Below, one piece after another: positions 9,910 to 41,697 of a DNA stretch of 51,968 nt (positions within the stretch are counted from its first letter, which is position 1; the number at the start of each line of letters is the position of its first letter). The position numbers were made by a program, and so were the translations under genes. The stretch comes from an uncultured Bacteroidales bacterium (lineage in GTDB: Bacteria; Bacteroidota; Bacteroidia; Bacteroidales; F082). Under the pieces are notes generated by a model. That model did no database searches and was not told the DNA's origin. It was given only the letters and a program-made list of their open reading frames with translations. The DNA lies in the NCBI GenBank assembly GCA_900317155.1, contig ONFO01000023.1, forward strand, positions 1 to 51,968, written 5' to 3'.

Positions 9910-9919
9910 CAAAGTTATT

Positions 9920-27153: not shown

Positions 27154-27198
27154 AATCCGTTTTTACGGAATCTGCTCGTTTTCAATTTTTTTAAAATT

Positions 27199-27232
27199 GC
27201 CTCACATTTCCCCAATGTGGGGCATTTTTTTT
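27199..27232 (+). terminator. Strong rho-independent terminator
   Basis: A 10-bp stem (gcctcacatt with aatgtggggc, one G-T) and a 5-nt loop, followed by eight T. It separates the coiled-coil lipoprotein from the NtrC-type regulator. Confidence 0.9.
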
Positions 27233-27241
27233 GTGTGTAAT

Positions 27242-27273
27242 TTTGTGGAATCTACAGAATTTTGCTACCTTTG
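27242..27273 (+). promoter_or_regulatory. Promoter of the NtrC-type regulator
   Basis: TTTG (27242-27245), a 20-nt spacer and TACCTTTG (27266-27273). The -7 element ends only 4 bp before ATG 27278, so the transcript may be almost leaderless. A TGTGGAA motif (27244-27250) overlaps the -33 box, which would allow repression or autoregulation. Confidence 0.6.
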
Positions 27274-27277
27274 CGCC

Positions 27278-28615
27278 ATGAAATGTAGAATTCTTGTTGT
27301 GGAAGACGATGCCTCCTTCGGCATGATGATTCAGACTTGGCTGAAGAAAAACGGTTATGAGGCTGTGCTTGCATCGCGTTATGAACAGGCTAAAATCGAG
27401 ATTTCGAACGGTGATTTTGGTTTGATTCTCACTGACTTGCGTCTGCCTGATGGCGACGGTATCATCCTCATGACCTGGGTCAGAGAGAAACTGAAAAGCA
27501 AGGTGCCCATCATCGTGATGACAGGTTATGCCGAAGTGCAGACCGCCGTCTCGGCCATGAAACTGGGAGCCTTCGACTACCTCAAGAAACCCATCAACCC
27601 GAGCGTGCTGGAGGAAAAGATAGCCGCGGCCTTGGCTTCCACCGGTGACGAAGTGGATGCGACCATCATTCCGGGCAACAAGCAATGGGTGAAGGGCAAC
27701 AGCCCGTCCATGCAGAGGCTCTACAAACATGTGGAATTGGTCGCACCGACCAAGTTTTCCGTCTTGATTCTTGGCGAAAGCGGGACAGGCAAGGAATACA
27801 TCGCCCGAATGATTCATGACTTGAGCCCCTACAAGGAAGGTCCTTTCATCCCTGTGGACTGCGGAAGCCTCTCCAAGGAGTTGGCACCCAGTGAGCTGTT
27901 TGGACACTTGAAGGGCTCGTTCACCTCGGCCATCGCCGACAAGAAAGGCGTGTTCGAGCAGGCCAAGGGTGGCACGGTGTTTCTCGACGAGGTGGGCAAC
28001 CTGCCCTATGAGGTGCAGATGCAGCTGCTCCGTGCCTTGCAGGAGCAGAAGGTGAGGCCTGTAGGCTCGGCCACCGACATCCATGTGGACGTGCGCATTA
28101 TTGCCGCCACCAACGAGAACCTGGAACAAGCCATTGAGGAAGGCCGGTTCCGTCAGGATTTGTTCCATCGTATCAATGAGTTTGCCATTGAGGTGCCGCC
28201 TTTGCGCGACCGTTTGGAGGACTTCGATGAGTTGACGGCCTTCTTCATCAGCCAGGCCAACGAGGAGTTGGGCAAGAATGTGAAAGGCATCATGCCCGAT
28301 GCCTTGCAGCGGATGAAGGAGCAACGCTGGAACGGCAACCTGCGCGAGCTGCGCAATGTGGTGCGTCGCTGCGTGCTGTTCGCCGAAAGCGAGAACATCG
28401 AGCTGGACGACCTGCCGGTGTTCAGTGCGCCCAACAAGAAGACCGTCATCGCCACGGATGAGGATGACTGGGCCTTGCGTCCCGAGCATGAGAAGGAACA
28501 GATCGAAGCCGCCTTGCAGAAGGCGAGGGGCAACAAGACCGTCGCGGCCAAGCTGCTGCAAATCGACCGCAAGACCTTGTATAACAAGATGCATTTGTAT
28601 GGGATAGAGCTGTGA
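27278..28615 (+). CDS. NtrC-type sigma-54-dependent response regulator
   Basis: A 445-residue regulator. ATG 27278 is preferred to the longer open frame from 27197, which would begin in the upstream terminator. Receiver domain at about 1-120 with VVEDD (Asp10, Asp11), phospho-acceptor Asp53 in LTDLRLPDGDG, and Lys in YLKKP. An AAA+ domain at about 145-380 has Walker A GESGTGKE (about 166) and Walker B-like GGTVFLDEVG. The loop that contacts sigma-54, usually GAFTGA, reads GSFTSA (213-218) here: Thr216 is kept. The C terminus has a Fis-type helix-turn-helix (KTVAAKLLQIDRKTLYNKM). It activates sigma-54 promoters on phosphorylation. No cognate kinase gene is adjacent. Confidence 0.9.
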   Translation: MKCRILVVEDDASFGMMIQTWLKKNGYEAVLASRYEQAKIEISNGDFGLILTDLRLPDGDGIILMTWVREKLKSKVPIIVMTGYAEVQTAVSAMKLGAFDYLKKPINPSVLEEKIAAALASTGDEVDATIIPGNKQWVKGNSPSMQRLYKHVELVAPTKFSVLILGESGTGKEYIARMIHDLSPYKEGPFIPVDCGSLSKELAPSELFGHLKGSFTSAIADKKGVFEQAKGGTVFLDEVGNLPYEVQMQLLRALQEQKVRPVGSATDIHVDVRIIAATNENLEQAIEEGRFRQDLFHRINEFAIEVPPLRDRLEDFDELTAFFISQANEELGKNVKGIMPDALQRMKEQRWNGNLRELRNVVRRCVLFAESENIELDDLPVFSAPNKKTVIATDEDDWALRPEHEKEQIEAALQKARGNKTVAAKLLQIDRKTLYNKMHLYGIEL

Positions 28616-28627
28616 TGTATTTTTCAT

Positions 28628-28850
28628 CGTTTATAACAACGTATACCCTAATGCAATGGGGTTTGAGATAGTTATTAACGATTCAAAAGGGCATGGAATC
28701 AGCCTTTTTGTCGTTTATAACGATAGTTTACCTGATTCGATAGGGTAGAGAAGAGTTATAAACGACCTGAAAGGGCAAAGAATCGGACAATTTGTCATTG
28801 ATAACCTCGCGACTCCCTATTTGATACGGTTTTTGATGGTTGTTCATCAA
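28628..28850. repeat. 84-bp tandem repeats containing an inverted repeat
   Basis: Unit 1 (28628-28711), unit 2 (28712-28795) and a degenerate unit 3 (from 28796) repeat at exactly 84 bp. Units start CGTTTATAAC (28628, 28712; cattgataac at 28796). In unit 2, GTTATAAACG (28755-28764) is the perfect inverse; in unit 1 it is GTTATTAACG (28671-28680). The units fill the gap between the regulator gene and the following gene. They could be operators of a dimeric regulator or remnants of a mobile element. Confidence 0.75.
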
Positions 28851-28863
28851 TAAAATGCTCTTT

Positions 28864-29619
28864 ATGACGCCATCAAGATTCAACCAGGGACTGGATTCCT
28901 TATCATTCAATAACGGAATTGATGAGATATGTCTTTATCTAAAAGACGTGCAGGCTGACGATTATATGACGGGTCTTGTCCAAGAAGTGAAAGATGCCAA
29001 CCAAAGGCTTTTAGATGCCCTACGTGTTGGCACGGCAAAGCATAATGTTCAGCAGGAAGTCAAACAGCTCAACGACAGCATTGTGGCGGCGTATCGTTTC
29101 ATCGACTCTTGCTGCTATTTGCCCGATACTGAGGTAAAGGCCAGCGCCAAGGAACTCAGAAAGCTCTTCGGTTCCTATGGCAAGCCACTCACCCGAATGG
29201 ATTTGTACACCCAGATGACGGAGGTAAAAGTCTTGCTTCACGACCTAGCCCAACCCAAGATGCAAGTTCATGTGGAAAAGCTCCCCATGTTGCCGGAGCG
29301 TATCAACGGCATTCGGGAGGCTTTGGATAAGTTATTGCATAAACACATGGATGTTATTTTGGACAAGAGCATGATGAAGAAGCACAAGCCTCTTCCCATC
29401 CTGAAGCGGGAAGCTAATGAGAAGCTCGAAGTCCTGGTAACCTATCTACAGGCGATGGCATCGAAAGATCCTGAAGCCTACGGCGGGCATTATGCCATGG
29501 TGACAAGGGTCATCAAGCGTCTGAATGCCACCTATACGGGCGGAGCGCCCAAAGCCTCGAAAAAGCGGGGTGAGGCTGGTGAGGATTCGGAGGCCCAGCG
29601 GGTTGCTATTGGGGCGTGA
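28864..29619 (+). CDS. DUF6261-like protein
   Basis: A 251-residue soluble, mostly helical protein. The open frame extends up to a TTG at 28840; ATGs at 28855 and 28864 are the likely starts. It shows the pattern of the DUF6261 family of Bacteroidetes: LDDSL-like NDSIVAAYRFIDS near the middle, KELRKLFGSYGKPLTRMDLYTQMTEVKVLL, and a Lys/Ala-rich tail (here with GGAPKASKKRGEAGED, probably disordered). I recall this family from its layout and am only moderately sure. No function is known. It is preceded by the 84-bp tandem repeats, a placement that suggests they regulate it. Confidence 0.6.
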   Translation: MTPSRFNQGLDSLSFNNGIDEICLYLKDVQADDYMTGLVQEVKDANQRLLDALRVGTAKHNVQQEVKQLNDSIVAAYRFIDSCCYLPDTEVKASAKELRKLFGSYGKPLTRMDLYTQMTEVKVLLHDLAQPKMQVHVEKLPMLPERINGIREALDKLLHKHMDVILDKSMMKKHKPLPILKREANEKLEVLVTYLQAMASKDPEAYGGHYAMVTRVIKRLNATYTGGAPKASKKRGEAGEDSEAQRVAIGA

Positions 29620-29635
29620 GTACTGAAAGGAATTG

Positions 29636-29749
29636 TCCTAAACTTGCGTTTTATTCTATTGATACTGTGCTAAAGCTTTCCGTAAACTCTCCTTGTGTGA
29701 ATCGACCAGCGACTGGGGCGAAAGTGTGATAATGCTGATTAGTTTAGGA
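29636..29749. other. Spaced 9-bp inverted repeat ahead of the restriction cassette
   Basis: TCCTAAACT (29636-29644) and AGTTTAGGA (29741-29749) are perfect inverses 96 bp apart, in a 230-bp gap with no gene. It could mark an insertion boundary or an RNA structure. The rest of the gap (to 29849) is AT-rich promoter-like sequence. Confidence 0.35.
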
Positions 29750-29821
29750 GAAAGAGGTATGCTTCAATAATATAATATTTACAGTATTAAGATAATACAT
29801 TCACATTTCATTATTTATTTG

Positions 29822-29829
29822 TAAATTTG
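29822..29829 (+). promoter_or_regulatory. Putative -7 element for the restriction cassette
   Basis: TAAATTTG fits TAnnTTTG, 20 bp before ATG 29850. No -33 box is visible at the expected distance. Confidence 0.45.
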
Positions 29830-29849
29830 CATCCAAATAATACTATTTT

Positions 29850-32111
29850 ATGGACATTCAAATCAAGGACAACAAAATATTTGCGCCTCTGAAAGGCAAA
29901 TGGCTTGTACATAAGCCTGAAGAAGAAGTCCGTCAGAAATATATTTGCCGATTAGTGGATCATTATGGTTATTCTTTAGACCAAATGGATCAAGAACGGA
30001 GTGTAACAAATTCCAAGAGAGGTACAGGCAGGGCTCGCGCTGACATTGTAATATGGAAAAGCGAAGAAGACAAACAGGACAATTTGTATCCATTTATTAT
30101 TGTTGAATGCAAAGCTGAGAACGTCTCGATTCGTAAAGAAGATTATTATCAAGGGATGAATTATGCTTCTTGGTTACATGCAAAGTTTTTTGTTACAACA
30201 AACTATAAAGAAACAAGGATATTTAAGGTTGTTGAAGGACACGTCCCCGACACACTTGAGGAAATCGTTGACATTCCTGATGCGGCAAAAGCCAATAATC
30301 AAAAGGAAATTGAAAAATTGCTGAAACAAACAAAGGCATTTACCCGAGATGAGTTTTCTAGATTGCTTTTCAAATGTCACAACATTATTAGAAACAACGA
30401 CAAGCTCTCTCCTGAAGCTGCATTTGACGAAATTAGCAAAATTCTATTTATTAAAATTCGCTACGAACGCGAGAACGACGAAGGTCAGATTTTCTCAAAA
30501 GACCGCTTTACAGAGAATCGCAAAGCATACGAGAAGCTTAACAAAGAGATGGGAGTAAAAGACTATAATCCTTTCTACCAAAATCTTTTTGAAAAAACCA
30601 AACAACAATTTGCCAGCGACCATTTGTTTGACGAAAATGCCAAAATTGAAATCAGGGAAAACAGTTTTGAACAAATTGTTAAAGAGTTGGAGATTTACAA
30701 CCTCTCAACTACTTCCGATGATGTGAAAGGCATTGCTTTTGAACAATTTTTAGGGAAAACATTCCGTGGAGAGTTAGGCCAATTCTTTACCCCGAGAACC
30801 ATTGTGGATTTCATGGTTTCTATCCTCGACCCACAAGAAGGCGAATATGTTTGCGACCCGTGTTGTGGAAGTGGAGGCTTTTTGATCAAGACATTTGAAT
30901 ATGTTCGTGAGCATATCGAAAAAGACATTGAGAGTCAAAAAGAAGCCGTCAAACAACAATGTTATGGTGAAGATTATGATAGCCTTTCGGAGAAGGAGAA
31001 ACAGAAGATTGAAACCAAAGTATCTGAAGCTTTTGCCCGTCTCAACGAAGAACTGAACATCAACAATGCCAAAGGACGACTTCGCACCTTGTCATTCGAT
31101 TGCATTTATGGAACAGACGCTAACCCACGAATGGCCCGCACAGCCAAAATGAATATGATTATGCATGGTGATGGACACGGTGGCGTTCACCATCATGATG
31201 GACTTTTGAATGTGAACGGCATTTTCCAAAACCGTTTTGATGTCATATTAACTAATCCACCTTTTGGCGCCCGTGTCGATAAGAGTCTAAAAATAACAGA
31301 AGCTGATAGATTTACTGACGAAGCCCAGATTGCAGCTTATATAAAAAGGTTCGGGGATGCCTATGTTGAAGGATTAAGACAAGTTAATGACCACATTGGC
31401 GAATCTCTTTTAGACCAGTATAAAATTGATAATGGGCTTACAGAGGTGCTTTTCATAGAACGCTGCTTGAACTTGTTGAAGCCTGGAGGAAGGATGGGAA
31501 TCGTTCTTCCTGAAGGTGTTTTAAATAATTCAAACCTCCAGAAAGTTCGCGATTTTGTGGAAAGTAGGGCAATAATATTACTCATCGTTTCCATACCCCA
31601 AGATGTGTTTATGGCTTCGGGCGCAACTGTAAAACCTAGTTTGTTATTCTTCAAGAAGTTCACAGAACAAGAAAGGCAAGAATATGATACTATCTTAAAC
31701 AATGCCACGCGCCAGATTGATGCAAAGTATTCTGATGAACTATCTTCTATTGAAGTTAAGCTTTCAAAACGAGGAAAAGATGCGGCGTCTAAAGAGGAAA
31801 AGAAAGAGCTGAAGATAAAAAAGAAAAAGATTGAAGAGCAGAAAGCCATCGAAATCAAAGCAATTGTCAAAGATAAGTTCGATTATGAGATACCTATTGC
31901 CGAAGTGCAAAAAGCAGGCATAAGCACAACTGGAGCCGCAATTGAGAATGAACTTGTTCCTTTGGCCGAAGAATACACCCCATATCGCATCGAAAATACG
32001 ATGTGGGAAGTGCCTGACAAGTCAACAAAATACAATTTGGCCGAAGACGGCAATATCTACAGGATTAGAATGACTGGAAGTATTGCCTCAGAACCTGAAA
32101 TATTCTATTGA
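29850..32111 (+). CDS. Nuclease-methyltransferase fusion (type IIB/IIG-like RM subunit)
   Basis: A 753-residue protein. Residues about 1-130 match the N-terminal domain of type I HsdR proteins (HSDR_N) and carry a PD-(D/E)xK nuclease core: Asp65 (ADIVIW), then Glu86 and Lys88 in VECKAE. Residues about 150-620 are an HsdM-like N6-adenine methyltransferase: GQFFTPR, SAM motif DPCCGSGGFL (336-345), catalytic NPPF (469-472). A Lys/Glu-rich coiled coil follows (about 625-680). There is no helicase domain and no HsdR gene nearby. A fusion like this with a separate specificity subunit is the BcgI-type (type IIB) arrangement, which cuts on both sides of a bipartite site. The next gene starts 18 bp downstream. 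Low GC relative to flanking genes suggests transfer. Confidence 0.85.
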   Translation: MDIQIKDNKIFAPLKGKWLVHKPEEEVRQKYICRLVDHYGYSLDQMDQERSVTNSKRGTGRARADIVIWKSEEDKQDNLYPFIIVECKAENVSIRKEDYYQGMNYASWLHAKFFVTTNYKETRIFKVVEGHVPDTLEEIVDIPDAAKANNQKEIEKLLKQTKAFTRDEFSRLLFKCHNIIRNNDKLSPEAAFDEISKILFIKIRYERENDEGQIFSKDRFTENRKAYEKLNKEMGVKDYNPFYQNLFEKTKQQFASDHLFDENAKIEIRENSFEQIVKELEIYNLSTTSDDVKGIAFEQFLGKTFRGELGQFFTPRTIVDFMVSILDPQEGEYVCDPCCGSGGFLIKTFEYVREHIEKDIESQKEAVKQQCYGEDYDSLSEKEKQKIETKVSEAFARLNEELNINNAKGRLRTLSFDCIYGTDANPRMARTAKMNMIMHGDGHGGVHHHDGLLNVNGIFQNRFDVILTNPPFGARVDKSLKITEADRFTDEAQIAAYIKRFGDAYVEGLRQVNDHIGESLLDQYKIDNGLTEVLFIERCLNLLKPGGRMGIVLPEGVLNNSNLQKVRDFVESRAIILLIVSIPQDVFMASGATVKPSLLFFKKFTEQERQEYDTILNNATRQIDAKYSDELSSIEVKLSKRGKDAASKEEKKELKIKKKKIEEQKAIEIKAIVKDKFDYEIPIAEVQKAGISTTGAAIENELVPLAEEYTPYRIENTMWEVPDKSTKYNLAEDGNIYRIRMTGSIASEPEIFY

Positions 32112-32129
32112 ACTCAAAACTAAATTATT

Positions 32130-33488
32130 GTGAGAAATACCAGTTTTAACATATTAAGTTTTGTTGGGTTTAAGCAAATTGGCAATTGGAGCGTCAACCA
32201 TATATTGGGGCAAAGAATTGGTTATAACAGAAAGTATTCTAGCCAACCTATTGGAAGCTTTGTGAAAAGAAGTTACACGACAATTAATGTCCAAAACGAC
32301 AAACAATACAAACAAGTCACCCTTAAGACAAAAGGAGGTGGAGCAGTATTGCGAGACATAAAAAATGGGAAGGACATCGGCACCAAGAAACAGTTTGTTG
32401 TTTCTGAAGGACAGTTTATTATGTCAAAAATTGATGCTCGTAATGGAGCTTTTGGTGTCGTCCCAAAAGAATTGGACGGGGCGATTGTTACAGCCGACTT
32501 TCCTGTTTTTGATGTTGAAGCAGATATTATCAACCCAGAGTATTTTGCTTTGATTTCTTCGACTAATGCTTTTGCCCGTTTTGCTCAGAGCTGTAGCCGA
32601 GGGACAACAAATAGGCAAAGAATAGACGTCAATTTGTTTTTATCCCAGCAAATCCCAACGCCAACTCTAAATGAACAACAAGCTTTGGTAAATGCTTATA
32701 AAGAGAAGATACAACTATCTCAAGAATTGGAAAGACAAGCCTCCCAGAAAGAAAGAGAGATTGAGGAATACTTATTGGGTGAACTTAATGTTTCCATAAC
32801 AAAAGCGAAACTGCATAAAGGATTGAATTTGATAAGGTTTAAAGATGTTGAGCGATGGGATATTCCATTCTTTGTTTCAAACACAAAAGCTTCTTCAAAA
32901 TATGATACTGTAAATTTGGCAACTTGTTTAGACAAGTTTATGCTTGATAATAAGGGCCAATCATTACGAACAGAAACATATAAATATCCAACCAATACAT
33001 ACCACTATATTGGTATGGATAGCATCGAGAAAAGTTCGGGAACACTACTTGAGTTACCGATTGTAAAGGGTTCAGACATAAAAAGTCAAACGATATCTGT
33101 CCCAATTAGATATTTTATCTATGGCAAACTACGACCATATTTAAACAAGTATTGGATTAATGACACAAATGAAACAGACATCGTTTGTTCATCGGAGTTT
33201 TTTGTCTTCAGCATCAAAGACCCAATTAACAAATTGTTTTTCAAGTATCTATTATCATCATCATTGGTGCAAAGCCAGCTATCGGATGCTGTGAGCGGTG
33301 CGCGAATGCCAAGAATCAACGAAAGCATATTCAAAAATCTTTTACTACCTATCCCACCCCGTTCAATTCAAGATAGAATTGCTGAACATATCAACGAGCA
33401 AAAAGAGCAAATCAAGCAAATGAAGCAACAAGCAGAAGAGTTGAGGAAGAAGGCTTTGGAAGAATTTGAGAAGGAGATATTTATATGA
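32130..33488 (+). CDS. hsdS: Restriction-modification specificity subunit (HsdS-like)
   Basis: A 452-residue S subunit with two target-recognition domains and two helical spacers. Domain 1 (about 15-180) contains FVVSEGQFIMSKIDARNGAFGVV and the closing SQQIPTPTLNEQQALV; spacer 1 follows (about 180-215, IQLSQELERQASQKEREIEE). Domain 2 (about 225-410) ends PRINESIFKNLLLPIPP, followed by spacer 2 (QIKQMKQQAEELRKKALEEFEKE). It should guide the nuclease-methyltransferase to a two-part site. GTG at 32130 is the only good start after an in-frame stop at 32121. It overlaps the next gene by 4 bp (ATGA), so the downstream genes are translated with it. Confidence 0.87.
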   Translation: MRNTSFNILSFVGFKQIGNWSVNHILGQRIGYNRKYSSQPIGSFVKRSYTTINVQNDKQYKQVTLKTKGGGAVLRDIKNGKDIGTKKQFVVSEGQFIMSKIDARNGAFGVVPKELDGAIVTADFPVFDVEADIINPEYFALISSTNAFARFAQSCSRGTTNRQRIDVNLFLSQQIPTPTLNEQQALVNAYKEKIQLSQELERQASQKEREIEEYLLGELNVSITKAKLHKGLNLIRFKDVERWDIPFFVSNTKASSKYDTVNLATCLDKFMLDNKGQSLRTETYKYPTNTYHYIGMDSIEKSSGTLLELPIVKGSDIKSQTISVPIRYFIYGKLRPYLNKYWINDTNETDIVCSSEFFVFSIKDPINKLFFKYLLSSSLVQSQLSDAVSGARMPRINESIFKNLLLPIPPRSIQDRIAEHINEQKEQIKQMKQQAEELRKKALEEFEKEIFI

Positions 33489-34348
33489 TAGATGAAATTG
33501 TAGATTATTGTCACCAAAAATACCAAAGCAGGGAGAACGTTTGTGCCAACTGTAACAATGCTCTTTGTTTAAATGATACTTGTGAGCAATGCCTGAAAGA
33601 CATACACTTTGACCCGTATTGTCATAGGAGTTACGATTGCCCCAATATGTGTAACTATTATGTTTGTCAAAACATATATAGGTATGCTACCGAAATGGCT
33701 TGGATTTGGTTTGATTTCATCACTCAAAATACTGGTGAAGGCAAACCATTCCAGCAGCTCGAGATTTGTTCTATTGGGTGCGGACCTTGTTCTGAATTAG
33801 TAGCACTGGAAGAATATTGTTCACACAACAATTTAATATTGCCATATAGTTATGTTGGATTTGACATAGAAAACACCTGGAATGAAATACAAGGTGTTTT
33901 AAAAAACAATTCTAATCATCCAAATGCTATTTCATTCGAGCATACCGATGTTTTTGATTATTATAATACGCATAACAAGCCAAATGTGATAGTTTTGAAC
34001 TATGTTTTATCAAGCATGGTAAAAAATGCTCCTAACAGCATAAATGCGTTTGTTGACAACTTGTGCAATCTTGTTTTCACACTGAATCCTTGTGCATTAT
34101 TAATAAATGATATAAACCATTATTCAACGCGCAGCTACTTTGATAGAATATTGTTGAGTATCATTTCTCAGAACAATGGTATTAGTGTTCATAGATTTCA
34201 TTTTGAAAACACTCAAAAGAACTATTATCAATACGGCATCCAAAGGAAACATGGTAGACTTTTGATAAATCCCAATATCCAAATTCAACAATTATACTCT
34301 CCAAATTCAGAATGTCATAGTGCTCAAATAATGATAATAAAGAAATGA
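33485..34348 (+). CDS. Cys-rich protein with SAM-methyltransferase-like domain
   Basis: A 287-residue protein, start overlapping the stop of the S subunit. The first 65 residues carry ten Cys in metal-binding spacing (CANC, CEQC, CPNMC and others), like a zinc-binding or iron-sulphur module. Residues about 85-230 resemble a class I methyltransferase: ICSIGCGPCSEL (SAM motif I), YVGFDIE (acidic end of the second strand) and VIVLNYVLSSMV. There is no NPPY/F motif, so it is not an ordinary N6-adenine DNA methylase. I do not recognise the full-length family. Tight coupling to hsdS suggests that it belongs to the cassette, perhaps adding or maturing a modification. Confidence 0.65.
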   Translation: MIDEIVDYCHQKYQSRENVCANCNNALCLNDTCEQCLKDIHFDPYCHRSYDCPNMCNYYVCQNIYRYATEMAWIWFDFITQNTGEGKPFQQLEICSIGCGPCSELVALEEYCSHNNLILPYSYVGFDIENTWNEIQGVLKNNSNHPNAISFEHTDVFDYYNTHNKPNVIVLNYVLSSMVKNAPNSINAFVDNLCNLVFTLNPCALLINDINHYSTRSYFDRILLSIISQNNGISVHRFHFENTQKNYYQYGIQRKHGRLLINPNIQIQQLYSPNSECHSAQIMIIKK

Positions 34349-34351
34349 ATT

Positions 34352-35707
34352 ATGATTCTCAGCGTTAGTCGAAGGACAGACATACCAGCGTTTTACTCGG
34401 AATGGTTCTTTAATAGAATCAAAGAAGGATTCGTATATGTAAGAAATCCTTTGAACATCCATCTGGTAAGTCGGATTTCATTGGACCCTAAACTCATCGA
34501 TTGCATTGTTTTCTGGAGTAAGAATCCCAAACCCATGCTCAAAAGACTGGATGAATTGAAAGATTACATGTATTATTTTCAATTCACCATAAATCCATAT
34601 AACGAATATCTTGAAAACCGCGTACCGAAAAAGCAACAGATCATAGACACTTTCCATAAACTATCTGACGCTATCGGGCCTCAAAGAACTATCTGGAGAT
34701 ATGATCCCATATTGTTGACAAACGACATTGACATAAACTATCATGTTACCTATTTTGAAGAAATAGCCAAGCGATTATATGGATATACGAACACTTGTGT
34801 AATAAGTTTCGTTGATCTTTACAGTAAAACACAGCGGAATTTAAAAGACACCTCTGCACGAGAACTTACTATGCCAGAGATTTTTGAACTTGCCTCAAAA
34901 CTCATCATCATAGCGCAAAAATATGGAATGAAGATACAATCTTGCGCCGAAGATATTGCATTAGAGAAATATGGTATTGTTCATGGAAAATGTATTGACA
35001 ATGTCTTGATCGAAGATTTGTTGGATTTGAAATTAGTGGTTTCAAAAGACAAAAACCAGCGAAAAGAATGTGGGTGCGTTCAAAGTATTGACATTGGCGA
35101 ATATAACACTTGCCTTCATGGCTGTAAGTATTGTTATGCAAACTTCGATAGCAAAACCGTTGAAAAGAAACAAGGCTTCCATAATCCGAATTCTCCATTG
35201 CTTATTGGAAAAATTGAAGATAACGATAGGATTGTTGAACGAAAACTATTTTCCTTTGTCAAACTTCCTGAACCGTATGAAATCGGTGATTTTGTAAAAC
35301 TGATTCATCCTGAAAAGTATTGTAAAGAGTTCTCAATAGCAAATAATCCAGTTAATATTTTCAAAATCAATACAATAAACAGTAATGAATGCTTTTTGAA
35401 CGGTGTAGAACATTGTGTTCCAATTGATGAAATAAAACCGATTAAGGTCAATGGAATAGAAGATCGATGGATATATTACAATCCTTCCGCTTCTTCTTCA
35501 ATAGTATTTCCTGGAAAGGAACTAACACCGCAGCAGATGAATTATTCGTATTACCTAGATACATTTAAAAAGTACTTCTATAAAGGGAAAAACTATTGTG
35601 AAATTGCCGAAAAGAAAAATCTATGCTATGTCCATGAAATTCAACATTTATTAAAAGAAATCGGAGACAATAAGGGGTTGAAAATCAATATAAACAAGAT
35701 TTGTTAA
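34352..35707 (+). CDS. DUF1848 protein with CxxxCxxC motif and extra C-terminal domain
   Basis: A 451-residue protein, 3 bp after the previous stop. Residues 1-270 match DUF1848: MILSVSRRTDIPAFYSEWF, FWSKNPKPML, YYFQFTINPY, RTIWRYDPI, ISFVDLY, and a Cys cluster SCAED (Cys198), C214, C240, C242, then C254-x3-C258-x2-C261 with CYAN. The last motif has the spacing of radical-SAM iron-sulphur sites but lies at the C-terminal end of the domain, not at the N terminus. DUF1848 proteins are usually about 300 residues; here another 180 follow (FVKLPEPYEIGDFVKLIHP; WIYYNPSASSS; PQQMNYSYYLDTFKKYFYKG), with a beta-rich part and a helical tail I cannot place. Activity is unknown; redox or radical chemistry is an inference. 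Confidence 0.78.
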   Translation: MILSVSRRTDIPAFYSEWFFNRIKEGFVYVRNPLNIHLVSRISLDPKLIDCIVFWSKNPKPMLKRLDELKDYMYYFQFTINPYNEYLENRVPKKQQIIDTFHKLSDAIGPQRTIWRYDPILLTNDIDINYHVTYFEEIAKRLYGYTNTCVISFVDLYSKTQRNLKDTSARELTMPEIFELASKLIIIAQKYGMKIQSCAEDIALEKYGIVHGKCIDNVLIEDLLDLKLVVSKDKNQRKECGCVQSIDIGEYNTCLHGCKYCYANFDSKTVEKKQGFHNPNSPLLIGKIEDNDRIVERKLFSFVKLPEPYEIGDFVKLIHPEKYCKEFSIANNPVNIFKINTINSNECFLNGVEHCVPIDEIKPIKVNGIEDRWIYYNPSASSSIVFPGKELTPQQMNYSYYLDTFKKYFYKGKNYCEIAEKKNLCYVHEIQHLLKEIGDNKGLKININKIC

Positions 35708-35791
35708 TGTCCGCTATTGTTCAATTTTGATAGACTATGTGGATTTCTATTTCTTAATTTTGCCTCCTCCTCTCGCCAATTTTCCCCGATT

Positions 35792-35818
35792 TTTGCAAAC
35801 TACACTTTGCAAATTTTT
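35792..35818 (+). terminator. Putative terminator of the restriction cassette
   Basis: TTTGCAAA (35792-35799) and TTTGCAAA (35806-35813) pair around a 6-nt loop and are followed by five T. A second hairpin, TTGTCGA-ttgcat-TCGACAA (35826-35845), follows. Confidence 0.5.
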
Positions 35819-35879
35819 CAATTTTTTGTCGATTGCATTCGACAATTCCTAAACATCACAACAACTCTAACGGATTGAT

Positions 35880-35990
35880 TTACAGGAAATCTTCTGCTTT
35901 GAGGCCTCCTTCGCCGACAATGAGGGCTTTCGCGTTCTTGAACTGTTTGCGGAATTCGCCCAAACCCTTTACAACAGGCTTTCTGATGAA
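35880..35990 (-). pseudogene. C-terminal fragment, possibly of an AAA ATPase with DUF4143
   Basis: On the minus strand the last 35 codons before TAA (35882-35880) read KPVVKGLGEFRKQF, then KNAKALIVGEGG, then KAEDFL. This resembles the tail of ATPase-DUF4143 proteins, which end in a short strand, a GGxP-like turn and a (E/D)(E/D)FL end. Upstream of about 35990 the frame no longer looks coding, and the rest of the roughly 400-residue protein is missing. The same DNA also reads open on the plus strand, so the call is tentative. Confidence 0.35.
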
Positions 35991-36235
35991 GAATTGGCTG
36001 AAAGATTGAAAGGCTATCCACTGATTGAAGAAAGTAGTTTCCCAAGTTTGGCAGCCGAAGACTATGGCGCTTATCTCAAATCTCGCAGTGGCCAACTTCC
36101 CAAAGGATTAGAGAAATGGCTGTGAGTAGTGTCTATCAACGAGAAAAAGTGGAAGCTAATTGTTTCTTGCGCCAAATACTTGATCAGGTGGAAGATTTCC
36201 TTCAAATCTACTGCACTTTTGAAAAAATGCAGTAA
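35966..36235 (+). other. Two small overlapping open frames, possible gene remnants
   Basis: A frame without a visible start runs to TGA at 36122-36124 and ends NRLSDEELAERLKGYP, then SLAAEDYGAYLKSRSGQ, then LPKGLEKWL; it looks protein-like. A second 39-codon frame (ATG 36116 to TAA 36235, starting MAVSSVYQREKVEANCF) overlaps it in the manner of an operon. I recognise neither. They fill most of the 530-bp gap between the restriction cassette and the AbiE pair; I see no other gene there. Confidence 0.3.
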
Positions 36236-36237
36236 TA

Positions 36238-37113
36238 TTATTTCTCTTCCCAATACCTATCATACAGACTTTTCAATCGCTCAGTAATCACAGCCATCAC
36301 ATTGGCAAACGAAAGTGACTCCTTCCATTGGATCTTTTTCAGGAACACTTCCCATCGCTTCAAGCGCACTTCATCGGTGCAAAAGTCATCATTGAACAAT
36401 TGTAGATTGGCGTTATATGCCAGCTCACGATTGTCGAATGTGGCTTTTATTGTCTCATACAGCATTTCGTCGTCAAGTTCCTTTGTGGTGAGAATCTGGT
36501 AGCAATCGAAGAAGTCCTTCATGCGGCTGTTGTTGACATCGCGCTCCACCATGGCATGGAACTTTTCAGCTACAATAGTCTCCAGCGAATAGGCTTGGAT
36601 GTTGATGCTGGGGACATCCTGAAGCAATAAGGGGAAATCAACAGGAACGGGACCAGGAATCACCACATCGCCGAATCCAACATCCATAGACATGGGATAG
36701 ACGATGGTGTCCATCTTGGCAGTGACGAAAAAACGAGACCCTGGATATTCCTTTTCGACAGTAATTGGCTCTGAACGAAGTCCATTAACATCGAAAGTGA
36801 CACCATCTTCCAAGCATTCGATACTCAATATTTCACGAAAGACCTTTTCCAAATACTCACGGTCTCGACTGATGCGCTGAGCCATGAAGTCAATGTCGAT
36901 GGTGGGCCGGGTTTCCAAACCGTTGAACGCATAGAGAAGAGAACCACCCTTCAAAAGGAAGTTCTCGCGATAAGGACTCACCGACACGCGATATAACAGA
37001 CGCTCGTTGAAATAACGAGCCAACAGATACATATATTTGTAGCCTGATGAGTTCATCAGATTGAGCAACTTAGTCTTGACCGACTTGCCATAGTTCTTGA
37101 TAGGTTTCGTCAT
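36238..37113 (-). CDS. abiEii: AbiEii nucleotidyltransferase toxin
   Basis: A 291-residue protein of the AbiEii/AbiGii family, the toxin of type IV toxin-antitoxin systems. The nucleotidyltransferase core is intact: LLKGGS (Lys55-Ser58) and the metal-binding pair in TIDIDF (Asp73, Asp75). The later family motif is present as VAEKFHAMVERDVNNSRMKDFFD (about 184-206), in which Lys and Asp are conserved. Such toxins transfer nucleotides, some onto tRNA acceptor ends, halting translation during phage attack. It overlaps the antitoxin gene by 4 bp (ATGA at 37113-37110), the usual order antitoxin then toxin. No lesion is visible. Confidence 0.9.
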   Translation of the reverse strand: MTKPIKNYGKSVKTKLLNLMNSSGYKYMYLLARYFNERLLYRVSVSPYRENFLLKGGSLLYAFNGLETRPTIDIDFMAQRISRDREYLEKVFREILSIECLEDGVTFDVNGLRSEPITVEKEYPGSRFFVTAKMDTIVYPMSMDVGFGDVVIPGPVPVDFPLLLQDVPSINIQAYSLETIVAEKFHAMVERDVNNSRMKDFFDCYQILTTKELDDEMLYETIKATFDNRELAYNANLQLFNDDFCTDEVRLKRWEVFLKKIQWKESLSFANVMAVITERLKSLYDRYWEEK

Positions 37114-37691
37114 TCTATTGCAATTTCAAGGTAGTTATTCATCACTTTTGTTAGTCGCAGCTTTTGTGCATATTCGGAAAGACGGGTGAGGTTGCGTCCC
37201 TTCAGGCGGGCATAGCTTCGGATTACTTCGGCACAAACATCCAATCCAACTTTATTGCGGTATTTCACGGCATCGCATACACTCCGCTCCAAATCGGTCA
37301 TGCGCACCTGAAAGCCAGAAATCTCTTTCTGCTCGATGCCAAATTCCAGGTTTTCTTTCTTCCAATAATAGAGGTTGATAGGCAATTCTTCGGGAAGCAC
37401 CACCTTTCGCTTGGCTTCGATGGCGACACAAAAGGCAGGCGGAACAGTGGTACATAGCTGATGGTGCATCCATGCGGTGTAGAGACACACAATGCCACCA
37501 GGCACGATGCGCTCTACATCGATCATGGTATTAAGCATGGCCGACGGCTCGGCATACACGCCATGACGCAGTCGCACTATGTCACCTTTACTGACCGCTC
37601 TGCGCAGCCGCTCATATTCTGCTCTCCCATCCAAATCTTTTGTGGAGATGACCCCACCTTTAGATGCTATTCGTTCAGAGACTGTTTCCAT
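37110..37691 (-). CDS. abiEi: AbiEi family antitoxin/repressor
   Basis: A 193-residue protein with the N-terminal winged-helix of AbiEi antitoxins (VISTKDLDG, YERLRRAVSKGDIVRLRHGVYA, about 14-48) followed by the antitoxin domain (VERIVPGGIVCLYTAWMHHQL; FQVRMTDLERSVCDAVKYRNKVG). AbiEi both neutralises the toxin and represses its own operon. It is first in the minus-strand pair. A TACCTTTG element at 37719-37712 lies 21 bp upstream of the start, and there is room beyond it for operator repeats, though none is obvious. Confidence 0.88.
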   Translation of the reverse strand: METVSERIASKGGVISTKDLDGRAEYERLRRAVSKGDIVRLRHGVYAEPSAMLNTMIDVERIVPGGIVCLYTAWMHHQLCTTVPPAFCVAIEAKRKVVLPEELPINLYYWKKENLEFGIEQKEISGFQVRMTDLERSVCDAVKYRNKVGLDVCAEVIRSYARLKGRNLTRLSEYAQKLRLTKVMNNYLEIAIE

Positions 37692-37711
37692 TTACAAACA
37701 TTTTTCAGCTG

Positions 37712-37719
37712 CAAAGGTA
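37712..37719 (-). promoter_or_regulatory. Putative -7 element of the abiE operon
   Basis: TACCTTTG on the minus strand, 21 bp before ATG 37691. No good -33 box is seen. Confidence 0.45.
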
Positions 37720-37780
37720 GTGTATTTTCCTTTATTTCGTTACTTTTGAACGGAGAATTTTAATAATCTCCGTAGAAAAA

Positions 37781-38461
37781 TCATCTCAGATAAGCCCGGA
37801 TGATTCGGACATCCTCAACAGGTCGGTCGTTGGTGTCGGTAGCCACTTGCTGAATGGCATCTACCACATCGAGACCGGAAACGACTTCGCCAAAGACTGT
37901 ATATTGACCGTCTAAGTGTGGCGTTCCTCCGATGGTCTTATACACTTCACGCATCTCAGGAGTGAGTTTTACCCGACCGTTTGTATAGTCGTCAATTCGT
38001 TTCTGAACACGGTCCAAGCTCTCATCGTCAAAGGTTTTCCCCCATACAATATAGAATTGCATTGCTGAACTACGTTGCTCTGGATTCACATCGTCACCTT
38101 CGCGAGCGGCTGCCAACACGCCACGACGATGGAATATCCCTTCATCGAGCCTGAATTCGGCTGGTATGGTGTAAAGCCTGTCACCGTCACCGAGCAGAAT
38201 GCCGGGTTCAGCATGTTTCGAATCCGGGTCGCCACCCTGAATCATAAAGTCGCGAATCACACGATGGAAGAGCAGTGAATCATAGGCTCCTTCCTCCACC
38301 AGCATCTTGAAGTTGTCGCGATGCAATGGCGTGGCATCGTAAAGTTTCAGCTCTATGTTGCCTTTTGTGGTTTCCATGACCACATGGACTTCCTTTTTCT
38401 TGCAGGAGGTCAACAGCGCTATCGTGGCTGCAAACGCAATAATCGTTATAATCCTTTTCAT
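37781..38461 (-). CDS. Cyclophilin-type peptidyl-prolyl isomerase lipoprotein
   Basis: A 226-residue protein from ATG 38461, which gives a lipoprotein signal (MKRIITIIAFAATIALLTSC, Cys20, then KKK); the open frame from 38512 is rejected because it overlaps a good promoter. The cyclophilin domain (about 25-225) shows GNIELKLYDATPLHRDNFKMLV, FHRVIRDFMIQGGDP (catalytic Arg region), QFYIVWGKTF and the closing YTVFGEVVSGLDVVDAIQ. An insertion of about 25 residues (DESLDRVQKRIDDYTNGRVKL) precedes the ending, as in several Bacteroidetes homologues. It helps proline-limited folding in the periplasm or at the outer membrane. Confidence 0.92.
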   Translation of the reverse strand: MKRIITIIAFAATIALLTSCKKKEVHVVMETTKGNIELKLYDATPLHRDNFKMLVEEGAYDSLLFHRVIRDFMIQGGDPDSKHAEPGILLGDGDRLYTIPAEFRLDEGIFHRRGVLAAAREGDDVNPEQRSSAMQFYIVWGKTFDDESLDRVQKRIDDYTNGRVKLTPEMREVYKTIGGTPHLDGQYTVFGEVVSGLDVVDAIQQVATDTNDRPVEDVRIIRAYLR

Positions 38462-38482
38462 TTTTTTGTTTAATAATTGCCA

Positions 38483-38513
38483 CAAAAGTACAAAAAACTC
38501 ATGTATTTGCAAA
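38483..38513 (-). promoter_or_regulatory. Promoter of the isomerase gene
   Basis: On the minus strand TTTG (38513-38510), a 19-nt spacer and TACTTTTG (38490-38483): a textbook Bacteroidetes promoter, 22 bp before ATG 38461. Confidence 0.72.
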
Positions 38514-38634
38514 TTATACTCTGTTTTGTGTTAGGTCGAAGTCCCGTGTCCCGAAGTCAAAAGATATTGTAGTTTAATTTTGAACAGTTATTTTCAATAA
38601 AAACGACGAGTTGGAAAAAAGTTATCATCACCCC

Positions 38635-38665
38635 TTGCGAAAACATGGTTTTGTCATTAACTTTG
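38635..38665 (+). promoter_or_regulatory. Promoter of the small unknown gene at 38724
   Basis: TTG (38635-38637), a 20-nt spacer and TAACTTTG (38658-38665), about 58 bp before ATG 38724. Confidence 0.6.
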
Positions 38666-38723
38666 CAAAGTCGAAAGACAAACGATACGAGATTTAATTA
38701 TCAACATCATAAGAAAAAAAGCC

Positions 38724-39134
38724 ATGACAGATTGTATAGAAATCACCGAATCCAATTACAAGGATTATTGTTCGCTCGACATTGTCGCCTTTTTATTTGC
38801 GCAACCTGGTGCGATGGGGGATCCCGGAGGGGTTGAGATTATCGATGCGCAGGGACAGTATTACCACACAAACTATTGCTACAATGGTGTGAGCTATGAT
38901 CAGCTCATGGAAATTGTGCCTGTACTGAAAGTCTGTAAAATCGGTATCGTCAATCATCAAGCACCTGAAGGCTGGAAGGCCATCTATTTGGGATTTGGCA
39001 ACCATCTTACCATCAAAGCAGATTATTACGACAAGTTTGAAGAAGAGACCCGTAACAGACACATTGAGGAAGCGGTAGAATTGTATCAACAATGGTCCGG
39101 AATAGTGTTGAAATGCATTAATAATCACGCTTAA
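38724..39134 (+). CDS. Small protein of unknown function
   Basis: A 136-residue protein, soluble, with no signal peptide or membrane segment. It has a plausible own promoter and an A-rich leader, and its sequence looks like a real protein: a beta-rich N-terminal half with EIIDAQGQYYHTNYCYNG, then APEGWKAIYLGFGNHLTIK, and a helical end rich in Glu. Several Cys and Tyr are present but no known motif. It is convergent with the histidine kinase gene, 65 bp away. I do not recognise the family. Confidence 0.65.
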   Translation: MTDCIEITESNYKDYCSLDIVAFLFAQPGAMGDPGGVEIIDAQGQYYHTNYCYNGVSYDQLMEIVPVLKVCKIGIVNHQAPEGWKAIYLGFGNHLTIKADYYDKFEEETRNRHIEEAVELYQQWSGIVLKCINNHA

Positions 39135-39199
39135 GGTCTTGCGCTGGTCGTTTCATGGTTTACTCGTGCTGGCCAAATAAACGGCAGAGCAGTGCATCC

Positions 39200-41647
39200 T
39201 CACTCAATCCCATACTTTTCCGACAGCAAATCCATCAATTCATCGGTTTGGGCCATGAATTGGGTGGCGTCTTCTTTCCAGTTCGGATAATCTTCTTCCG
39301 TCTCGTTCTTGCCGCGCATGGCGTTCATCCGGGCGAGGAAGGTGGTGTCGCGCTCAAGCTGCTTGAACATGGGTAGCATCTTGTGGCAAAGACTCTGCAT
39401 CTCAACGAAATCCGATTTTTCAATCAACGCATTCATTGCGACCAAGTCATCAGAGGTGGACTGCACGAAGACCCGAAGGATGTCGGTCATGGCTTCCTTG
39501 TCGTTGCCCATCATCTCGCTGAAGGCAGGGAAGTCGGGGAAGGCGGTCTCGCCCTCGCTTTCGGTGGCGGCGACACTTCCAAACAGGTTCTCCAACTGCC
39601 TTAGGTTGAAGGGCTTCTGGAGGAATCCGTCGAAGCCTTCCTCGTGGGCTTTCTCGGTGTTGTACTCGATGCGGCCGGTCATCAGGATGACGGGCTTCTT
39701 GTTGTCGACTTCCTTGACCAGGAAAAGGATGTCGTTGCCGCTCACAGCACCCATCTCGCGGTCGGTGAGGATGTAGTCGTATTCTTGGATTTGCTGCAGG
39801 GCGTTGTCCAAGTCGTTCATCGAACGGCAGGGGATGGCCTGGTGACCGAGACGGTGCAGCATATTGTCGATGACGGACAGCAGGGTGTTGTCGTCGTCGA
39901 TGACTAAGATGTTGAGGCTCTTTCTGCTGTCAGTGTCTTCGCCCTTGTCTTCAACTTGTTGCTCCAAGACTTCCACTGGGATCCTGACCTCGAAATGCGA
40001 GCCTTTGCCCACCTCCGATTCGGTGTGGATCTCACCGCCAAGGAGGTCGACGAGACCTTTGACGACCGACATGCCGTAGCCGCTGCCCTCGGCAAACTGG
40101 TTGTAGGTCTCGATGCGTACAAAAGGTTTGAACACCTCTTCCAGCTTGTCCTCGGGGATGCCCACGCCGGTGTCGATGATGTCGAAGACGACCAGACTGC
40201 GCCCCAATCTCGCCTTGAAGCTGACGCTGCCTTCCAAGGTGTATTTGATGCCGTTTGAGATGAGGTTAGTGAGTATTTGCCTGATCTTCAGTTTGTCGGA
40301 GTTGAGTAGGGTGTTGGGCTCGATGTTGTTCTCGAATTGGAATTCCAGGTTCTTGTGTCGTGCGATGGGGGCAAACATCTCGGAGATTTCGGCACAGAGT
40401 TGTCCGATGTCGAAGTTCTCGTTGCTGACTTGCAGCTTGCCTTGTTCGAGGCTGGAGTATTCCAGGAGGTTGTTGAGCAGGTTGAGGATGTGGTCGGCCG
40501 ACTGCTGTATCGAAACGATTTCCTTTTCGTTGTTGTTCTTGTCCATGAGTTCCACATGACCCATGATGGAGGTCAGCGGCGCCTTGATGTCGTGTGAGAC
40601 GGAGAGCAGCAGCTTGTGGCGGCTTTCCATGATTTCCTCGGTCTTCCTCTTGGCTTCCTCGGCGGCGCGGCGGGCACGGTAGCCTTTGTTGACGTCGCTG
40701 ATAATCAGGATGATGAAGATGATGATGAGGATGAAGGTCGCGGCTCCTATGAGGATAGAGGTACGGGTGTTTTCTTGGATGATGAGCTCGCTTTTCTCGA
40801 TTTCAGCGACGGTGGAGTCAAGGATTTCCTGGTTGAGGCGTATCAGCAGGGAGGAGATTTGCTCGGAGAGTTGGTTATCAGCCTTGACCAGTTCCTGGGT
40901 CTTTTTCTCGTAATCCTTGATTTTTTTCCAGTATTCGGTCTTAGCTCTGTCGGAGAGCACGCGTAGGTTGGCCAGGATGTTGACTGAGTCTTGGCCTTGG
41001 TGTTGGATGCGGAGTGTGTCGGTGCGTTCGATGGAGATGTGGACGACGCTGTCTTCCTCTTTGTCGGGGCTGAAGACGTTGCCCACGCGGCTCCAAAAGC
41101 CTTTCTTCTCGGTTTTCGGAACGTGGATGACCGTGTCTTTCGAAACGGTGGTGACCACGAGTTCCTCTTCGGGTTGGGGTGGGATGTAGTCGTCGATGGT
41201 GCGGTCAAACTCGGCAAGGGGGTTGAAGTCGTGGAACTGGCGCGACAGCTCGTTGCTGAGTCGGCCCTTGCTGTTGATTAGTTTCTCGATTTCGCTGACC
41301 ATCATCTTGTTGTCTTCGCTGATTTCGTATTTCATGAGCGAGTCGGTCTGGGTCTTGATGTCGTCGCGGTAGGCGTTGAACTCGCGTTTGTATTTCACTT
41401 GTTCGGTGAAGGCGTAGAGGTTGGCCGCGTTTTGTGCGCCGTGTACGTTTTTGGTGAACTGATTGACCCAGTTGAGCGCATCGTGTTGCGTGTTGATGTT
41501 GGAGCGTTGGCTTTCGATGGTCTTTCGCAGGTTGAAGATATAGTAGAACAAAGCCGCACAAAGGGCCAGGACGAATAGATAGGTGATGACCACCTTCCAA
41601 CTCGTGCGGCTCCCGCTTGGGTAATCGGTTTTGTTTTTCTTCGACAT
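39200..41647 (-). CDS. Hybrid histidine kinase with receiver and HPt domains
   Basis: An 815-residue protein from ATG 41647; the longer frame to 41767 crosses the promoter region and is rejected. Membrane helix about 17-38, a periplasmic sensor about 40-290 with coiled-coil stretches, second helix about 300-322. Then HisKA with VSHDIKAPLTS (phospho-His352), a HATPase domain with DTGVGIPEDKLEEVF and GSGYGMSVVKGL, a receiver with VIDDD and phospho-acceptor Asp629 in LTDREMG, and a C-terminal HPt domain with LCHKMLPMF (His755). The order HK-REC-HPt lets one protein pass phosphate over His-Asp-His to a separate regulator. It is divergent from a TPR regulator gene, with start codons 51 bp apart, so they may act together. 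Confidence 0.9.
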   Translation of the reverse strand: MSKKNKTDYPSGSRTSWKVVITYLFVLALCAALFYYIFNLRKTIESQRSNINTQHDALNWVNQFTKNVHGAQNAANLYAFTEQVKYKREFNAYRDDIKTQTDSLMKYEISEDNKMMVSEIEKLINSKGRLSNELSRQFHDFNPLAEFDRTIDDYIPPQPEEELVVTTVSKDTVIHVPKTEKKGFWSRVGNVFSPDKEEDSVVHISIERTDTLRIQHQGQDSVNILANLRVLSDRAKTEYWKKIKDYEKKTQELVKADNQLSEQISSLLIRLNQEILDSTVAEIEKSELIIQENTRTSILIGAATFILIIIFIILIISDVNKGYRARRAAEEAKRKTEEIMESRHKLLLSVSHDIKAPLTSIMGHVELMDKNNNEKEIVSIQQSADHILNLLNNLLEYSSLEQGKLQVSNENFDIGQLCAEISEMFAPIARHKNLEFQFENNIEPNTLLNSDKLKIRQILTNLISNGIKYTLEGSVSFKARLGRSLVVFDIIDTGVGIPEDKLEEVFKPFVRIETYNQFAEGSGYGMSVVKGLVDLLGGEIHTESEVGKGSHFEVRIPVEVLEQQVEDKGEDTDSRKSLNILVIDDDNTLLSVIDNMLHRLGHQAIPCRSMNDLDNALQQIQEYDYILTDREMGAVSGNDILFLVKEVDNKKPVILMTGRIEYNTEKAHEEGFDGFLQKPFNLRQLENLFGSVAATESEGETAFPDFPAFSEMMGNDKEAMTDILRVFVQSTSDDLVAMNALIEKSDFVEMQSLCHKMLPMFKQLERDTTFLARMNAMRGKNETEEDYPNWKEDATQFMAQTDELMDLLSEKYGIE

Positions 41648-41654
41648 GACGGCG

Positions 41655-41682
41655 CAAAGGTAATACTTTTTTCTTAAATTTG
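41655..41682. promoter_or_regulatory. Overlapping divergent promoter region
   Basis: TACCTTTG on the minus strand (41662-41655), 8 bp before the kinase start, and TAAATTTG on the plus strand (41675-41682), 15 bp before the TPR gene start. Their upstream halves overlap, so the two genes probably compete for or share regulation. Confidence 0.45.
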
Positions 41683-41697
41683 CGGGTTGAAACAAGG

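Follow-up and report, generated by a model that had tools for sequence, protein, structure and literature searches.

The last two genes of a four-gene restriction cassette, encoding a Cys-rich methyltransferase-like protein (gene 3) and a DUF1848 protein (gene 4), were found side by side in seventeen non-redundant loci and are best read as a separate, horizontally moving two-gene module. The cassette lies in contig ONFO01000023.1 of an uncultured Bacteroidales bacterium, and the whole stretch of 51,968 nucleotides analysed here is referred to as the window. We consider the chances about even that the pair is a portable nucleic-acid modification or repair module which is appended to some restriction-modification (RM) operons as an accessory, and whose chemistry, substrate and effect on phages we infer. 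Its presence at RM operons hints that bacterial immunity has a helper activity yet to be described.

The four open reading frames (ORFs) of the cassette are all on the plus strand at 29850-35707 and encode 753, 452, 287 and 451 amino acids (Table 1). The S subunit gene (gene 2) overlaps gene 3 by 4 bp and gene 4 follows after a gap of 3 bp. This spacing and the coordinates, both given in an initial annotation of the window, were confirmed in the ORF coordinates, and the motifs named there were recovered in the translation (D65, E86 and K88; DPCCGSGG from residue 336; NPPF from residue 469). The cassette is AT-rich, with a GC content of 34-40% against 43-58% in the flanks.

Recurrence and divergence of the gene 3-gene 4 pair

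The seventeen pairs, in which L numbers designate loci (and G numbers genomes), are those of the window, L004, L010, L011, L012, L014, L015, L017, L039, L040, L041, L044, L046, L063, L087, L121 and L124; near-copies were merged (L042 and L043 with L041, L045 with L121). The gene order is reversed in L039, the methyltransferase gene of L040 is split in two and was left unjoined, and L063 is a weak member (E 0.005). The pair was also observed in other phyla, namely Bacillota (L014, L015) and Spirochaetota (L017), with identities of 18-32% for gene 3 and 48-52% for gene 4. Because the pairing recurs across phyla it is more than chance, and the view that genes 3 and 4 belong together is upheld. 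The settings of the thirteen pairs without an upstream RM operon vary, prophages and mobile elements being among them; in the L124 prophage the pair lies between a repressor and an integrase, and in L041 it adjoins a tape-measure gene. Read by eye, the L044 pair is accompanied by McrBC and a macro domain and the L011 pair by a helicase/nuclease. The gene upstream of the pair in L012 looked SIR2-like by eye and was set aside, as no Pfam family matched it.

The two genes differ in their extent of conservation. Median identity is 24% for gene 3 versus 50% for gene 4 in 78 comparisons among thirteen loci, with gene 4 the higher in 75 of them, and by this measure gene 3 diverges faster, as would be expected of a recognition component paired with a conserved catalyst. 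The DUF1848 protein of L041 shares 62-70% identity with its counterparts in L004, L014, L015, L046 and L121, its gene 3 just 16-18% with theirs, a mismatch from which partners seem to have been exchanged between loci; the two trees also disagree.

Gene 3 has a single Pfam match, which is under the cut-off (Methyltransf_34, 0.0028), and the PADLOC model that it matches is labelled 'methyl transferase'. Its AlphaFold model (pLDDT 87.7) retrieved class I methyltransferases in Foldseek, with a best E of 1.6e-7 and 420 matches at E <= 0.001, and a class I S-adenosylmethionine (SAM) methyltransferase fold is predicted with good confidence. The motif I-like S96-x-G-C-G, which bears on putative SAM binding and methyl transfer, is kept. 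Eight residues (C20, C23, C28, C33, H41, C52, C99 and C277) are invariant in all eight Cys-rich members of the family, and as judged from their conservation the Cys/His cluster is a possible metal site. Larger architectures occur in L044, where the homologue (8569-9999) has an extra N-terminal part with a weak match to RnlA_toxin just under the cut-off (1.1e-5), and in L011, where a 1645-amino-acid protein ends in the methyltransferase-like domain.

Since gene 3 is very divergent, single sequences retrieve little and profiles more. The window sequence as a single query matched itself and one spurious sequence (2 of 395 genomes) and one phage-like record, with no match in plasmids or viral contigs; the L015 sequence likewise found none in plasmids or viral contigs and the same single record in phages, and alignment A2 had no match in viral contigs. 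Two candidate members, G409 (L009) and G321 (L003), were rejected as they had neither a later-profile match nor a partner. Among genomes matched by gene-3 profiles, 15 of 19 and 23 of 30 were dropped, as they carried other methyltransferases that lacked both partners within 1.5 kb; second profile matches in G1066, G021, G088 and G878 stand outside the counts.

Linkage to restriction-modification operons

Genes 1 and 2 look like an ordinary BcgI/BsaXI-like type IIB RM enzyme, as judged from their domains and relatives. Gene 1 combines HSDR_N_2 (6e-28, residues 23-143) with N6_Mtase (3.8e-38), its relatives in the PDB include the RM.BsaXI chain (4.6e-23) alongside type I M subunits, and it matches PADLOC MTase_I over the full length (1249 bits). 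Gene 2 shows Methylase_S in two stretches (4.1e-13), which correspond to two target-recognition stretches, and matches S.BsaXI (1.7e-7). A nuclease and an N6-methyltransferase in one chain with a separate S subunit of two recognition domains are thus present, and in a scan of the eight proteins between 28840 and 39134 no HsdR-type translocase family was found. For an enzyme of this kind, cutting on both sides of a bipartite site would be predicted. The available portion of PMC11997821 describes RM plus S as the enzyme in the BcgI/BsaXI layout, and together with the Pfam domains and the two BsaXI matches it bears out the assignment to this layout made in the initial annotation. The window shares with these enzymes the nuclease-N6-methyltransferase fusion and the separate S, and adds two genes at the 3' end.

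Fusions of similar length (682-725 amino acids) were found in at least five of the 39 other genomes of the genus (G1140, G494, G1125, G1130 and G1122), four of them with a gene matching an S subunit beside the fusion. In the stretches fetched, neither gene 3 nor gene 4 was near any of the five, which have other 3' genes instead. An RM enzyme of this kind therefore does not need the pair, in line with the earlier statement that the BcgI layout requires no further genes, and genes 1 and 2 should be complete alone. In two loci of the same genus (L275, 5951-9064; L276, 5897-9013) the BcgI-like RM and S genes are followed by two further genes, one for a 674-amino-acid protein that is ATPase-like by eye and one for a protein of some 340 amino acids, and from these loci the 3' accessory genes of IIB cassettes may be interchangeable.

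In four of the seventeen loci the pair has an RM operon directly upstream on the same strand. Two are IIB-like (the window, and L015 in Ruminococcus bicirculans) and two are type I (L046 and L121, which are IMG/VR contigs of unknown host). In L015 the order is an N6_Mtase protein, whose VRR_NUC nuclease match is below threshold, Methylase_S and the pair. In the type I operons the pair comes last after HsdM, HsdS and HsdR (L046) or after HsdR, HsdM and S genes (L121; the start of the merged L045 is the tail of an S gene shared with L121). The gap from the operon to the pair is 37 bases in L015, 36 in L046 and 73 in L121, compared with the 4-bp overlap in the window. In L121 (5619-7823) facing S fragments and a recombinase-like gene were seen by eye, which suggests phase-variable specificity of its upstream RM system. 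Downstream of the pair, a 1287-amino-acid protein that is RM-like by eye lies two genes away in L010, and an HsdR-like gene about 2 kb away in L017. In L066/L067 (= L135/L136) an HsdR-like match, some 5 kb distant, amounts to a weak helicase similarity and was not counted as RM.

No RM genes were found within 1.5 kb of any of the 29 DUF1848 loci of the window's order other than the window, 28 of which lack gene 3 (12 query proteins; 30 of the 38 listed DUF1848 places were covered, window included). The resulting comparison, 4 of 17 versus 0 of 28, gives a one-sided Fisher p of 0.016, a rough value in that the seventeen pairs come from several collections with varied flanks and the 28 controls from one order with 1.5-kb flanks. 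Some of the control loci have other methyltransferase-like neighbours by eye. A single clade of RM-linked pairs was rejected by the approximately unbiased (AU) test (p 1.6e-5 and 2.0e-5 for 14 gene-3 and 27 DUF1848 proteins), and three changes of RM linkage are required on each tree. From these trees, of which parts are made unsure by long branches (L039 and L124 in both), the pair appears to have become linked to restriction operons on more than one occasion. Its attachment to different RM types suggests a nucleic-acid editing helper in some RM systems; if true, there would be interchangeable accessory modules at the 3' end of RM operons besides cutters and methylators.

The initial annotation had proposed an extended system of all four genes that makes or senses an unusual DNA modification. 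In its strict form, genes 3 and 4 would place an unusual mark on DNA for the RM enzyme to depend on or recognise, and the tight coupling in the window and the same gene order in two phyla (window and L015) are what such an obligate system would show. We regard it as improbable, as fusions of this layout lack the pair in the genus (none of five has it), the portion of PMC11997821 noted above treats RM plus S as the enzyme, the pair is the last part of type I operons too and turns up without RM as well (no RM operon directly upstream in 13 of 17), and the RM-linked pairs are not one clade. Of that proposal, an undescribed defence-linked activity is partly supported; an obligate four-gene unit is not supported. 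The count of adjacent genes in other genomes that was suggested with it gave a similarly divided answer, with the four-gene order recurring in L015 and the pair ending two type I operons, and 13 of 17 pairs without an RM operon directly upstream.

Rather unlikely, in our view, is a free-standing module, defensive or otherwise, that merely shares a variable site with the RM enzyme and does no joint work with it. Thirteen of the seventeen pairs have no RM operon directly upstream (the contig start hides this region in L017 and partly in L014), the same site holds other cargo in genus relatives, and the five BcgI-like genus fusions have other 3' genes and no pair, all of which such a module would explain. 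However, the RM-linked pairs are co-directional with the operon and close to its last gene, which is tighter than clustering in an island needs.

AlkB in place of DUF1848 and the proposed activity

The DUF1848 match of gene 4 (PF08902) scores 369 bits against a gathering threshold of 30.5, and the protein also matches PADLOC RTasDUF1848 (7.4e-54). Seven Cys are invariant in 48 aligned DUF1848 proteins, including those of CX3CX2C and of a C-x-C shortly before it. The other 47 aligned proteins are all <=356 amino acids long; the predicted core has pLDDT 90-99 by blocks, and the C-terminal extension is of low confidence. Within the window's order 36 of 198 genomes had a DUF1848 match, and no described function for it was found in the literature searched, where the word occurs in none of 5.39 million papers.

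Searches led by gene 3 revealed a second partner. In all sixteen non-redundant family loci the partner is directly adjacent, being DUF1848 in nine (window, L004, L010, L011, L012, L014, L015, L017 and L039) and an AlkB-type dioxygenase in seven (L037, L038 and L093-L097). This count omits loci whose query rows came first through DUF1848, which are also paired, and one profile behind it also contained rows first found via DUF1848. Weaker matches (A6 profile, E 4.5e-10 or worse) were other methyltransferases with neither partner within 1.5 kb. The AlkB genes were confirmed by Pfam in L093, L095 and L096 and by similarity in the rest, and in L084, a Planktothrix plasmid record, DUF1848 and AlkB genes stand on either side of a methyltransferase-like gene. 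The AlkB protein of L093 is closest to ALKBH8 (1.4e-29; next 1.4e-9) and that of L096 to ALKBH3 and ALKBH2, and the methyltransferase-like domain of L037 is fused to a helicase. The methyltransferase-like and AlkB pairs of L093-L097, L037 and L038 occur in Bacteroidota, several as overlapping genes, and L038 lies near Wadjet-like genes (by eye).

The AlkB class removes or hydroxylates methyl groups on nucleic acids, and in eukaryotic ALKBH8 an AlkB part is joined to a methyltransferase and acts on the wobble uridine of transfer RNA (tRNA). By these resemblances the AlkB partners point to nucleic acids generally, with one of the two lineages tested leaning towards ALKBH8. The exchange of DUF1848 for AlkB is the strongest hint for a nucleic-acid reading, in which both proteins would act on one substrate. 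By analogy, gene 3 would recognise and methylate this substrate, and gene 4, as a radical-SAM-like Fe-S enzyme, would act at the same place, either modifying the mark further or reversing it, and might be the functional counterpart of AlkB. Within RM operons the module could serve as an accessory that shields or repairs host nucleic acid during attack, or as a second layer of defence. It would work like the AlkB-methyltransferase pair of the ALKBH8 arrangement without being a member of that family: sister lineages have AlkB beside the methyltransferase-like gene, the window has DUF1848 instead, and the tRNA link is by analogy. The pairing of DUF1848 with a gene that elsewhere pairs with AlkB makes DUF1848 chemistry testable.

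Several points weigh against this accessory module. The idea of a nucleic-acid substrate comes mainly from the AlkB swap, the boundary of the gene-3 family behind that swap was drawn after the partners had been seen (at an E gap from 4.8e-13 to 4.5e-10, about three orders), and the AlkB gene of L097 lies in two overlapping frames. Of the 29 same-order DUF1848 loci other than the window, 28 are without gene 3 (L201, at the same place as L012, has it), so DUF1848 chemistry need not be defensive. The three changes on each tree may represent separate gains, or else a single gain with two losses. The radical-SAM identity of DUF1848 fits the motif and the barrel-like model, and its assignment is weak: Foldseek returned weak TIM-barrel matches, among them the radical-SAM enzymes 5why, 8asw and 3rf9, native DUF1848 proteins do not match radical-SAM PF04055, two of three rearranged copies reached E 0.025 and 0.064, under the cut-off, and rearrangement brought no gain in hhalign profile comparison. 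Circular permutation was accordingly rejected as proof of a radical-SAM fold, being weak by Pfam and without gain by hhalign.

A product other than an altered nucleic acid was also weighed. Viperins make a modified nucleotide, and the pair might similarly make a small molecule of this kind or a metal-related product with no action on nucleic acid; a CX3CX2C protein next to a SAM-fold protein would suit this, as would the NCBIfam similarity to radical-SAM models, which is at motif level only. We find it very improbable, since AlkB in the same place in sister lineages and the helicase fusion in L037 both favour nucleic acid, and the viperin match is limited to the motif region and is equal in a control rearrangement. 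More tentatively than for the RM accessory module, we see it as possible that the pair is a new kind of immunity plug-in for varied effectors, in which a fast-evolving recognition methyltransferase and a radical (DUF1848) or oxidative (AlkB) enzyme edit a nucleic acid and so guard the cell or mark invaders. Its effectors would include type I and type IIB restriction enzymes, helicases and possibly reverse transcriptases.

Genes 3 and 4 match the PADLOC models C3a159 and RTasDUF1848, labels which we take to denote candidate partners of DRT reverse transcriptases; the partner in the window is an RM enzyme instead, and no reverse transcriptase was found among the eight proteins scanned around the cassette, which sets it apart from DRT with DUF1848. 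Positions 49-136 of PADLOC RT_UG35 resemble the methyltransferase-like domain of L095 (2e-5). As PADLOC has a model for each of the two proteins, its authors had already noticed them close to defence genes, apparently with reverse transcriptases as far as the labels tell. An RM-like methyltransferase and an S subunit with extra genes are also shared with the methylation-associated defence system (MADS), but the NCBIfam scores fall well under the cut-offs (MAD2, 310 bits against 720; MAD5, 48 against 400) and no other mad gene was found among the eight proteins scanned. No description of the RM-plus-pair arrangement was found in the titles and abstract openings of the literature searched, and as far as these searches reach the arrangement is undescribed.

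The window site and other settings of DUF1848

Genus relatives have other cargo between a regulator gene (27197-28615) with DUF6261 on one side and the genes at 37781-41767 on the other. The same site is occupied in G1132 (L268) by a type I-like M gene together with what look by eye like S and R genes, and in G1127 (L264) by different genes that include an integrase-like one (by eye). G1129 (L267) has, one gene away from the regulator, a lone DUF1848 gene with 37% identity, the right border being outside the view. The window site (28840-39200) behaves as a variable site and is probably a defence hotspot, of which the DUF6261 gene is the left border, outside the module. The AbiEi/AbiEii pair directly adjoins the RM cassette on the opposite strand and is a neighbour, not part of it.

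Table 1. Features annotated in and around the cassette, with their positions in the window.
Feature	Position	Strand	Basis
DUF6261 gene	28840..29619	+	Pfam DUF6261 1.3e-8; homologue at border in L264 and L268
Gene 1, nuclease-N6-adenine-methyltransferase fusion (RM subunit)	29850..32111	+	HSDR_N_2, N6_Mtase, RM.BsaXI, PADLOC MTase_I
Nuclease active-site stretch D65 ... E86-x-K88	30042..30113	+	Read from translation
Gene 2, S (specificity) subunit, GTG start	32130..33488	+	Methylase_S, S.BsaXI
Gene 3, Cys-rich class I methyltransferase-like protein, 287 amino acids	33485..34348	+	PADLOC C3a159 3.9e-12; AlphaFold model; Foldseek
N-terminal Cys/His cluster of gene 3 (C20, C23, C28, C33, H41, C52)	33542..33640	+	Invariant in 8/8 Cys-rich members
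Gene 4, DUF1848 protein, possible Fe-S / radical-SAM-like enzyme, 451 amino acids	34352..35707	+	PF08902 2.3e-110
CX3CX2C motif (C254, C258, C261), C-terminal end of DUF1848 core	35111..35134	+	Invariant in 48/48
C-terminal extension of gene 4, residues ~305-451	35264..35704	+	Window copy only among 48 aligned
AbiEii/AbiEi toxin-antitoxin pair	36238..37691	-	AbiEii 9.2e-45, AbiEi_4 3.1e-9 (Pfam)

Other settings of DUF1848 were observed as well. Clusters with a UvrD-like helicase gene (by eye) form a second recurring setting (L205, L207, L209, L059, L065 and L089). In the phage contigs L049-L052 and L054-L057 the DUF1848 gene follows a small CCAKCFIG protein near ParB-like genes (by eye), an arrangement conserved in phages from which gene 3 is missing. 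In L208, L214, L226, L066 and L090 the neighbours of DUF1848 are proteins that have methyltransferase-like motifs by eye but do not match the gene-3 profile, and the DUF1848-methyltransferase partnership may be wider than counted. On a Roseburia plasmid (L082, 6322-8942), genes for an ADP-ribose hydrolase, Sir2 and DUF1848 are consecutive according to the record annotation.

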